Of a stretch of 64,000 bases of DNA, positions 2,234-30,472 are shown piece by piece. The stretch lies in NCBI RefSeq assembly GCF_040149665.1, contig NZ_JBEFLP010000001.1:2418001-2482000 (forward strand). Direction: 5' to 3'. Positions within the stretch are counted from its first letter, which is position 1; every line of letters starts with the position of its first letter. This DNA is from Sulfitobacter sp. HNIBRBA3233. Its GTDB lineage: Bacteria > Pseudomonadota > Alphaproteobacteria > Rhodobacterales > Rhodobacteraceae. Below the pieces are notes generated by a model. It was not told where the DNA came from. It saw nothing but the letters and a program-made list of their open reading frames with translations, and did no database searches. The position numbers and the translations under genes are program-made.

Positions 2234-2539
2234 ATGAAAACCCTTTTCGCCATGATCGCTACAGCTTCCGCTATCGGTTCCGCTGCCGCCGCCCAAGAGG
2301 TCTGCATGAGCGCTGCGGAAATGCAATCCTCTTTGATCGACTGGTACGGTGAAGAACCCGTCGCTGGTCCGTCGCCCGACAACACCCGTCTTTGGGTATC
2401 TGACGCCTCAGGTACATGGACGCTTGTCCGCACGATGGCCGATGGTGCCGCCTGCGTTGAAGCGACGGGTGAAAACTGGTCGCCCGGCCGTGACGCCAGC
2501 GAAATGCTTGCCGCTCTGGAAGCCCGCGACAAAGGCTGA
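2234..2539 (+). CDS. small secreted protein of unknown function
   Basis: A 101-residue protein with a clear Sec signal peptide (residues 1-20, alanine-rich, ending AAA before QEVC). The mature part is about 80 residues with just two cysteines (Cys24 and Cys74), which could form one disulfide in the periplasm, and a WxxW-rich middle (DTWTLVRT-like region about 60-68). I do not recognise a family. It is preceded by a good ribosome site (CAAGGAGATAGAG, about 2219-2231) and lies just upstream of the ahcY leader in the same direction, so the two could share a transcript. The clean signal peptide and ribosome site argue that it is real. Confidence 0.7.
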   Translation: MKTLFAMIATASAIGSAAAAQEVCMSAAEMQSSLIDWYGEEPVAGPSPDNTRLWVSDASGTWTLVRTMADGAACVEATGENWSPGRDASEMLAALEARDKG

Positions 2540-2551
2540 GACAATCAGCCT

Positions 2552-2571
2552 CTGCGCCATTTATTGCGCAG
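2552..2571 (+). other. small hairpin upstream of ahcY leader structure
   Basis: CTGCGC (2552-2557) pairs with GCGCAG (2566-2571) around an eight-base AT-rich loop. It lies 13 bases after the stop of the secreted-protein gene and directly before the larger ahcY leader structure. There is no T tract after it, so it is not an ordinary terminator. Confidence 0.4.
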
Positions 2572-2580
2572 GACAAGTCT

Positions 2581-2623
2581 CGGTGGTATGCGCCCTTCAA
2601 CAGTTCATGAAGGAGTGCCACCG
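2581..2623 (+). promoter_or_regulatory. structured ahcY leader that hides the ribosome-binding site
   Basis: Two nested perfect helices can form here. The outer pairs CGGTGG (2581-2586) with CCACCG (2618-2623), ending exactly at the base before the ahcY start codon. The inner pairs CCTTCA (2594-2599) with TGAAGG (2608-2613), around an eight-base loop. The Shine-Dalgarno AAGGAG (2610-2615) overlaps the inner stem, so the fold would block initiation. The gene makes S-adenosylhomocysteine hydrolase, so an SAH- or SAM-responsive element is a natural idea. From memory the sequence does not match the core of the known SAH riboswitch or the SAM/SAH class. Confidence 0.5.
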
Positions 2624-4009
2624 ATGGCCAACGACTACATCGTGAAAGATATCAATCTCGCCGAATATGGTCGCAAAGAGCTTGATATCGCGGAAACGGA
2701 AATGCCCGGGCTGATGGCGCTGCGCGAAGAGTACGGCGAAAGCAAGCCGCTCGCAGGTGCGCGCATCGTCGGATCGCTGCATATGACCATCCAGACAGCC
2801 GTGCTGATCGAAACGCTTGTCGCGCTGGGCGCGGACGTGCGCTGGGCATCGTGCAACATCTTCTCGACACAAGACCACGCCGCTGCGGCCATTGCCGCTG
2901 GCGGAACGCCTGTGTTCGCGATCAAGGGCCAGACACTGGAAGAGCATTGGGATTACCTCGACAAATCCTTCATGTTCGAAGACGGCCCCAACCTGATCCT
3001 CGACGATGGTGGTGACGCGACGCTCTACATCCTGCTCGGTGCGCGGATCGAGGGCGGTGAGGAATTCGGCGTTGCGACATCCGAGGAAGAGGAAGTCATC
3101 CAGAAGCAGATCAAGAAGCGGATGGAAGCCTCCCCCGGCTGGTTCACCAAGATGAAAGACCAGATCAAGGGCGTGTCGGAAGAAACGACAACCGGTGTTC
3201 ACCGTCTCTACGATCTGAAAAAGAATGGCGGCCTGCCTTTCCCTGCGATCAACGTGAACGACAGCGTCACCAAGTCGAAGTTTGACAACAAGTACGGCTG
3301 CAAGGAATCGCTGGTGGACGGCATCCGCCGCGCGACCGACACGATGATGGCGGGCAAGGTTGCCGTGGTCATGGGCTATGGCGATGTGGGCAAGGGCTCT
3401 GCCGCGTCCCTGCGCGGCGCCGGTGCCCGCGTGAAGGTGACCGAGGTCGACCCGATCTGCGCCCTTCAGGCCGCCATGGACGGCTTTGAGGTGGTGCTGC
3501 TGGAAGATGTCGTCTCCTCGGCGGATATCTTCATCACCACCACCGGCAACAAGGACGTGATCCGCATCGAGCACATGCGCGAGATGAAGGATATGGCCAT
3601 CGTCGGCAACATCGGTCACTTCGATAACGAAATTCAGGTGGCCAGCCTGAGAAACCACAAGTGGACAAACATCAAGGAACAGGTGGACATGATCGAGATG
3701 CCTTCGGGCAACCGTATCATCCTGCTGTCCGAGGGCCGTCTGCTGAACCTCGGCAACGCCACGGGCCACCCGTCCTTCGTGATGTCCGCGTCCTTCACCA
3801 ACCAGGTGCTGGCGCAGATCGAGCTGTGGAAGAACGGCGGCCAGTACGAGAACGACGTCTATATCCTGCCCAAGCATCTCGACGAGAAGGTTGCGCGCCT
3901 GCATCTCGACCGGATCGGTGTGAAGCTGTCCAAGCTCGACCCCGAGCAGGCCGCCTATATCGGGGTTTCCCCCGAAGGGCCGTTCAAGCCGGAACACTAC
4001 CGCTACTGA
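2624..4009 (+). CDS. ahcY: adenosylhomocysteinase
   Basis: A 461-residue S-adenosylhomocysteine hydrolase. It cleaves SAH to adenosine and homocysteine in the cytoplasm, removing the product inhibitor of methyltransferases and feeding methionine recycling. The NAD-binding motif [13 protein letters not shown], the substrate-domain segments [15 protein letters not shown] and DDGGDATL, and the C-terminal [11 protein letters not shown] followed by KPEHYRY are all diagnostic. The start at 2624 ([10 protein letters not shown]) is chosen because AAGGAG at 2610-2615 is well spaced; the frame is open 60 bases further upstream. Linkage to senC-regA is conserved in Rhodobacter and relatives. A strong hairpin terminator follows. 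Confidence 0.98.
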
Positions 4010-4046: not shown

Positions 4047-4080
4047 CGCCGCCCGGGCTTCTCGGGCGGCGGTTGCGTTT
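4047..4080 (+). terminator. ahcY terminator
   Basis: A nine-base-pair GC stem, CGCCGCCCG (4047-4055) with CGGGCGGCG (4063-4071), is followed by a loose T-containing tail (GTTGCGTTT). It sits 38 bases after the ahcY stop. Confidence 0.7.
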
Positions 4081-4201
4081 GGGGGCCAGCCAATGCGGGG
4101 AAAACCGCAGGAAAAATTCCTTTTTCCGTCGAAATTTTATGCTTAGTCTTCCCGTCGAAGACCGGCAAAACGCCGGTTGCCACAGCCGGGAGATTGGAAA
4201 T

Positions 4202-4543
4202 ATGGGCAAACGCGACGAGTGGATTCAGAAATACGCCGACGATCTGCGTAACAAATGCGGCATGGAGCCGGACATGGACCTGCTGACAAAGGTCACCATC
4301 GGATGTGGTCCATCCATTTATAACGCCGACGCCCAGACCGTTGCGGGCAGCGACACCGCAGAGCTGAATACCGTCAAGGAAAACTTCCTGATGAAGAAGC
4401 TCGGCCTGCCCGACGACGAAAGCCTGATGGGCGGCATCCAGAAGGTGATCGAAACCTATGGCCGCTCCGAGCGCAACAAATATCGCGCCGTCGTCTACTA
4501 CATGCTGACAAAACATTTCGGCAAGGAATCGGTTTACAACTGA
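4202..4543 (+). CDS. DUF2853 family protein
   Basis: A 113-residue soluble protein beginning MGKRDEWIQKYADDLRNKCG and ending YYMLTKHFGKESVYN, which fits the DUF2853 family in length and content (a helical bundle with a central FLMKKLGLPDDE segment). The cellular role is not known. The start at 4202 has a GGGAGA ribosome site about nine bases upstream; the frame extends 129 bases further upstream, but that part runs back into the terminator region and lacks a good site. It is a single gene bounded by the ahcY terminator and its own strong terminator. Confidence 0.85.
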   Translation: MGKRDEWIQKYADDLRNKCGMEPDMDLLTKVTIGCGPSIYNADAQTVAGSDTAELNTVKENFLMKKLGLPDDESLMGGIQKVIETYGRSERNKYRAVVYYMLTKHFGKESVYN

Positions 4544-30315: not shown

Positions 30316-30472
30316 TTCTGCTACCCTTTCAGATAAGCGCCCTTCGTTGGGGAAGGGTGTCCCGCGGATGGAGTTAGAACGCTTCCGGCACTGGCACAAG
30401 CGTCTATTCGGGGCTAGAACGCCGTTCGATCGCCTTTTTGCGACCTCCCTGACGCTGATCGGAAACCTGCCC

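Follow-up and report, generated by a model that had tools for sequence, protein, structure and literature searches.

Does the RNA in front of ahcY, the S-adenosylhomocysteine (SAH) hydrolase gene of Sulfitobacter sp. HNIBRBA3233, fold over its own ribosome-binding site, and what might such a fold do? The gene lies in a 64,000-nucleotide stretch of contig NZ_JBEFLP010000001.1 (positions 2,418,001 to 2,482,000), which we call the window and number from its first base. An initial annotation had proposed that two nested helices mask the Shine-Dalgarno (SD) site, with a third hairpin just upstream, as a possible switch sensing SAH or SAM, or a translational switch of another kind. The ahcY reading frame (461 aa, 2624-4009, plus strand, ATG at 2624) matched PF05221 (E 1.3e-143), which bears out the gene identity given there. 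The helices, the SD (AAGGAG, 2610-2615) and the ATG also sit where they had been placed, all on the plus strand. CGGTGG (2581-2586) pairs exactly with CCACCG (2618-2623) in the outer helix. In the inner helix CCTTCA (2594-2599) pairs exactly with TGAAGG (2608-2613), and this 3' arm overlaps the SD. The upstream hairpin (2552-2571) joins CTGCGC (2552-2557) exactly to GCGCAG (2566-2571). Folded alone, 2552-2640 gave a z of -3.7, with 1 of 200 shuffles equally stable. A small gene of 101 aa (2234-2539, plus strand) lies directly upstream of ahcY in the same direction; it has a signal-peptide-like start, as judged by eye, and matched no Pfam or NCBIfam family. A terminator scan found none between the two genes, and a transcript of the small gene could run into ahcY.

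The sequence that carries the 5' arms also carries a conserved promoter. Of 255 distinct regions upstream of ahcY, 247 had a sigma70-type pattern of TTG, a 17-bp spacer and TGnTA (180 of 182 in the first batch and 67 of 73 in the second), with a spacer of 17 in all 247; the finder favoured spacer 17, in shuffles likewise, and the same scan matched 0.85% of mononucleotide shuffles. In the window this pattern places a -35 element, TTGCGC, at 2564-2569 and an extended -10, TG-g-TATGCG, at 2584-2592 (hexamer 2587-2592, with G at -7). Transcription is predicted to start at 2599-2600, the seventh base past the -10 hexamer, at a CAA initiator with A at +1 and +2. Among 146 leader representatives, all of which have the promoter by construction, A was found at +1, +2 and +3 in 66%, 82% and 62%, G at -7 in 72% and C at -6 in 69%. 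The Rhodobacteraceae ahcY promoters thus combine a strong G at -7, a GC-rich discriminator and a CAA start. In the sections of PMC8407463 that deal with alphaproteobacterial promoters, TA at -12/-11, a spacer that is most often 17 bp and a commonest -10-to-start gap of 6 bp are described, and T at -7 is absent in more than 60%. The same sections link the type without T at -7 to CarD, and the ahcY promoters resemble that type.

With a start at 2599-2600, as the position of the promoter implies, the 5' arms of both helices would therefore lie almost wholly upstream of the transcript. Only the last base of the inner 5' arm (-5 to +1) is downstream of the predicted +1, and the outer 5' arm, which covers promoter spacer and extended -10, would be promoter DNA. 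The 3' arm of the upstream hairpin overlaps the -35 element. The word leader is thus probably a misnomer for 2552-2598, most of which appears to be promoter. Little of the 5' arms would be present in RNA from this promoter, and a switch therefore cannot work as it was first drawn. There is a wider caution here: stable predicted leader folds can span a transcription start and then be missing from the main mRNA.

Upstream regions for comparison came from three sources: 80 named records, which were the best 80 of 585 relatives; the window's genus, in which 62 genomes were searched; and the best-scoring places in a family-wide draw, in which 280 of 295 genomes matched. Leaders had to have the promoter and 26 to 46 nt after the -10, which removed 13 of the 182 in the first set and 12 of the 73 in the second (6 of these 12 because the promoter was lacking), and loci without an identified ahcY start were left out (7 and 7). 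For most tests the leaders were reduced to representatives at 70-85% identity. In the main test the upstream piece of each leader was compared with pieces swapped in from other leaders, and scored by fold energy (where negative z is stabilising) or by stem score. One record in the collection, locus L027 (JAHVJD010000003.1), is titled Nocardioides marinus DP1N28-1. That label is probably wrong, because its ahcY locus is Rhodobacteraceae-like, with 90% AhcY identity.

The inner helix was kept as a pairing and not as a sequence. Its six pairs occurred at the exact positions of the window in 4 of 146 leaders, and the arms may shift. When a shift was allowed, the segment -6 to +6 in the window's genus complemented its own SD region better than those of other species (z 5.7, n=55); clustered at 65%, the same test gave z 3.7 (n=9) with a null parallel control. 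By ensemble energy, -12 to -1 folded with its own +1-to-ATG segment better than with swapped ones (z -4.2, n=31). Reversed, shuffled, far-spacer and codon controls of the energy test were null and the complemented one gave a weak z of -1.7; the shuffled one came to z -2.0 when leaders were clustered at 70%. The 5' arm in the genus mapped to -7 to +4 and the 3' arm to the SD, 16 to 5 nt before the ATG. CCTTCA-N8-TGAAGG is shared by the window and its nearest relatives, L217 and L082, with the arms kept and the loop changed; among species generally the inner arms differ in sequence and spacing and are still complementary, and the loops vary too. Two Roseovarius leaders, L006 and L008, carry TGCA-N9-TGCA and TTCA-N9-TGAA, respectively, so that both sides of one pair have changed around the same loop (by eye); the small gene was undetected at L008. 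An automatic search for paired changes in equal-length relatives returned one case, whose stem was not the SD hairpin. When 31 genus leaders were aligned with MAFFT and folded with RNAalifold, no hairpin was predicted, only three pairs in the start codon region; the inner arms are out of register in this alignment because their sequences and lengths, like those of the loops, differ. Judged from these comparisons of sequence, the inner helix is genuine, with arms that vary yet stay complementary.

The rest of the proposed fold fared differently. All six outer pairs were found in the window alone among the 146 representatives, and complementarity at the fixed outer positions was 0.377 for own and 0.378 for swapped partners. 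In the 28 genus leaders alone it was 0.345 against 0.310 for swaps (P=0.044), and in the 118 others P was 0.75. Within the leaders that have the small gene upstream, the outer region gave z +1.0, below the +1.3 of its parallel-complement control. Stems allowed to shift freely scored slightly above swaps (z about +2.4 in a new set of 59 leaders and in 70-75% clusters), and the parallel control of that test gave +1.8 to +1.9. A conserved outer helix was rejected on the fixed-pair comparison and the small-gene set. For the upstream hairpin, the stem test in the small-gene set gave z +0.35 and the energy z was +2.1 with and -1.9 without the small gene; neither test supports a conserved hairpin, and this candidate was rejected as well. 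Thus, of the nested pair that had been proposed, the inner region covaries where a codirectional small gene lies upstream and the outer one does not, and the third hairpin is present in the sequence but is without support as a structure.

Beyond the genus, the unsplit leaders gave mixed results. Inner energy z was -3.3 to -4.0 for the first 110 and -2.0 for the first 90 leaders of a longer list from other genera, and in the new set of 59 leaders, also unsplit, the inner test found nothing (z -0.4, against +2.6 for the parallel control). We therefore split the leaders by their upstream gene; this split was made after the unsplit new set had given nothing. A rough scoring of ORF orientation, before homology was used, had yielded nothing usable. 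Enough upstream DNA was available for 130 of the 230 usable leaders and not for the other 100, of which 60, picked by list position, formed a follow-up set; the classification thus covers 190 of the 230 loci. Homologs of the small gene were found upstream of ahcY at 70 of the 130 loci and 19 of the 60, in all 89 of 190 classified Rhodobacteraceae loci, and at 89 of 89 they were codirectional with ahcY. At loci without the small gene the upstream ORF was divergent in all 88 that could be placed, with 13 not placed (53 of 53 with 7 not placed, and 35 of 35 with 6 not placed, in the two sets).

This arrangement separated the leaders sharply. With the small gene (n=55), own pieces outscored swapped ones with an energy z of -7.8 and a stem z of +6.1, and the values were -0.2 and -0.3 without it (n=58). 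When other genera were taken by themselves, z was -5.5 with (n=33) and +0.5 without (n=49); the nine genus leaders without the small gene gave a stem z of +2.0 yet an energy z of -0.75. The contrast survived clustering at 60-70%, and at 70% the own piece exceeded expectation in 28 of 34 leaders with the small gene and 23 of 48 without. A strong hairpin, defined by an own residual under -2 kcal, was present in 30 of 69 leaders with and 4 of 59 without the small gene (128 leaders). The 5' arm in the small-gene set mapped to -13 to +3 and the 3' arm to about 20 to 1 nt before the ATG. Leaders outside the split repeated the pattern: those with the small gene gave z -4.1 (n=18, P=0.0001; reversed-sequence control -0.9) and those without z -1.3 (n=39, P=0.10; reversed-sequence control +0.3). 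All leaders of that set had been in the unsplit tests, and 9 of its 19 small-gene leaders came from the genus of first sighting; in other genera only, P was 0.015 (n=10). Covariation across relatives thus holds for the inner helix behind a codirectional small gene, and for neither the outer helix nor the third hairpin.

Neighbouring comparisons also scored. In the small-gene set the windows from -49 to -42 reached up to +2.7 and those from -41 to -30 gave +2.0 to +2.3, and -36 to -13 against -12 to -1 scored z -3.7 in leaders that have the small gene and -2.9 in those that lack it. The method therefore has a background, and no single z value should be given much weight; the contrast between the two groups is the stronger evidence. 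On the AhcY tree the label changed 28 times, and 8 contrasts fell on supported branches. These went the right way in 2.9-4.9 and the wrong way in 0-0.5 cases, varying by cut-off (about 5 to 0.4 at the mildest one), and were not significant (median sign P 0.125-0.25).

The predicted consequence for the ribosome site differed between the two groups. Behind the small gene, the mean SD unpaired probability was 0.417 in read-through RNA, 0.465 with swapped upstream sequence (P=0.022) and 0.566 in RNA from +1; without the small gene the values were 0.546, 0.514 and 0.571, respectively. In the genus alone the comparison with swapped upstream sequence gave P=0.093. For the window itself, the SD was unpaired with a probability of 0.17 in the long form and 0.37 in RNA from +1, where it was still partly paired through pairing with the ORF. 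Two further comparisons concern the RNA downstream of the start. In the set without the small gene, swapped segments paired better with the remainder of the leader than the native segment -1 to +7 did (z -3.3), and in other genera the same held for +2 to +8 (z -3.6). This under-pairing from about +1 onward probably marks the transcript boundary.

We consider it probable, though well short of assured, that ahcY has a promoter whose start lies inside the 5' arm of the hairpin, and that RNA reading through from upstream is masked, which would insulate ahcY from its neighbour. The 3' arm contains or abuts the SD and the 5' arm spans the putative start point. RNA reading through from the small codirectional gene would hold both arms, fold and hide the ribosome site of ahcY. 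RNA from the gene's own promoter (2599/2600) would keep no more of the 5' arm than its last base and would be translated freely. The hairpin would thus insulate the output of ahcY from the neighbour gene. The idea that the fold masks its own ribosome site is kept in this reading to the extent that the inner part, which appears to be under selection, can mask it; the 5' arms, however, lie upstream of the predicted start.

Two known arrangements resemble this one. In IS10/Tn10, RNA started outside the element reportedly folds back and hides the transposase start, a case associated with Davis, Simons and Kleckner in 1985. IS10/Tn10 is a mobile element with terminal inverted repeats, whereas ahcY is a resident metabolic gene. 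The other arrangement is that of phage T4 gene e (also soc, 49 and I-TevI), in which a hairpin masking the ribosome-binding site is bypassed by an internal late promoter, as proposed for ahcY. As set out in the relevant portion of PMC3014915, long gene e RNA started upstream forms a helix over the ribosome site, and the late promoters sit a short way upstream, inside the 5'-strand sequence, so that late RNA is missing this part and gets translated. At ahcY a helix over the SD or AUG was found in silico in the longer RNA, the promoter is placed so that RNA from the predicted +1 lacks the 5' strand, and the structure is kept in relatives with a codirectional upstream gene. Unlike the T4 genes, ahcY is a housekeeping gene on the chromosome. 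Its arrangement, known here from sequence analysis, uses a sigma70-type promoter and occurs in many Rhodobacteraceae, and its hairpin is clear or not according to the arrangement of the upstream gene.

Other readings have to be weighed against insulation. The hairpin might instead be a 3'-end element of the small-gene mRNA, an exonuclease barrier or a U-less terminator whose overlap with the SD is incidental. Two observations suit such an element: the signal stands out behind a codirectional gene, and mostly only a short gap separates the stop codon of that gene from the promoter. However, the genus 3' arm maps onto the SD, and the SD is less accessible in the long form than with swapped upstream sequence, as noted above. 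The terminator scan found no terminator-like site at 2590-2640, and leaders of the small-gene set had at most 5 T per 8 nt after +7, a value of 5 being reached in 13 of 55. We regard a 3'-end element as unlikely. An intrinsic terminator in the ordinary sense was rejected, as a scan of 2100-2900 found none at the hairpin and there was no U-tract of the kind required.

The structural evidence would be identical if the hairpin were a regulated switch on the bicistronic RNA, opened or closed by a small RNA, a protein or temperature. Such a switch is an improbable reading, given that +4 to +14 contains no conserved loop or binding sequence and that arms and loops vary between species. More doubtful again is the view that the pairing has no function and reflects inverted repeats made by template switching, or relatedness mistaken for covariation. 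It would agree with supported-branch contrasts that are not significant by themselves and with one neighbouring comparison in which both groups had a background z near -3; against it stand the strong with/without contrast, which was repeated outside the split and survived clustering, and controls that were mostly null.

An inverted repeat centred downstream of +1 could also be a DNA operator, a palindrome at +1 bound by a SahR- or MetR-like repressor, and SahR sites are 20-bp palindromes in the part of PMC4239095 that treats them. We give this reading very little weight: arm sequence and spacing change within one genus while complementarity stays, the MetR consensus in that part, ATGAA-N5-TTCAT, was unmatched by eye, and SahR is placed there, within Rhodobacterales, only in the two Hyphomonadaceae studied. 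With arms that differ and no conserved palindrome, a SahR or MetR operator was rejected. The same 2014 survey, in its Rhodobacterales section, lists MetR and SAM-SAH (before metK) in 13 of 15 genomes and SAM_alpha in 14 of 15 (PMC4239095).

Least credible of all is the SAH/SAM-responsive riboswitch in the ahcY leader that was proposed at the outset, which the identity of the gene recommends and which neither the covariance models, the leader core, the outer helix nor the position of the 5' arms upstream of the predicted start supports. An Rfam scan of 2100-2900 returned nothing at E<=10, in keeping with the remark made in the initial annotation that the core is unlike the known SAH or SAM/SAH riboswitches. 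Positions +4 to +14 held 0.02-0.11 bit each across the 146 representatives, which leaves no conserved ligand-binding core. RF01057 was found nowhere in the genome, in a search in which 14 control genomes gave no match either. The single RF01727 match in the window's genome (C1:1576588-1576638, 50.9 bits) adjoins an ORF that we take to be metK, and ahcY is without a match to either model; RF00521 also matched elsewhere in this genome. By published account, the SAH riboswitch (RF01057) precedes and controls ahcY in beta- and gammaproteobacteria (PMC4239095), and the SAM/SAH riboswitch (RF01727) belongs to Rhodobacterales, in the short leader of the SAM-cycle gene metK (PMC4239095, PMC2864571). 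A signal that depends on the direction of the upstream gene is, furthermore, not what a ligand switch for ahcY predicts. Both riboswitch classes were rejected, and with no aptamer-like core, variable arms and loops and an outer helix that is not conserved, the suggestion of SAH or SAM sensing is unsupported.

If insulation is correct, a trick of phage T4 and of transposons would have been carried over to a housekeeping gene, and the independent output of a gene lying close behind another with no terminator between them would be explained. The same gene in many species would then form a natural experiment in which the hairpin tracks the arrangement of the neighbour, and would supply a simple signature by which other genomes could be searched. 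Tentatively, and as a possibility that we would not yet expect to hold, resident genes with short-leader promoters may gain an anti-read-through hairpin across the start when the gene in front of them runs in the same direction and has no terminator, and lose it when that gene faces the other way. This would be a general insulation device of compact genomes that ties translation to the promoter of origin, with Rhodobacteraceae ahcY as one case. Among titles in the open-access literature we found no such arrangement described for a chromosomal housekeeping gene, which leaves novelty unproven.

The ahcY promoter class recurs at one other place. A strict form of the pattern had only two matches in the window's genome, at ahcY and at a gene (L302, C1:1583303-1583377, minus strand) that, from reading its protein, we take to be miaB and that shares the TTG-N17-TGnTA class. 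From reading the ORFs, miaB is divergent from its upstream gene in this genome. A set of 30 of the 59 matched genomes was used for miaB: 28 of 30 genus loci had the promoter class, and the energy test in the window's genus, a further control for the ahcY result, found no signal (z +0.2 to +0.9, 16-20 representatives). TTGCAAG was present at the -35 in 29 of 30 genus loci.

Three further features of the window were recorded. A DUF2853 protein (PF11015) is encoded 3' of ahcY at 4073-4543 (plus strand), and a GC-rich inverted repeat lies between the two genes, as seen by eye. In the window, only a serC leader RNA (RF00517) at 30316-30367 on the minus strand reached its Rfam gathering score (70.5 bits).
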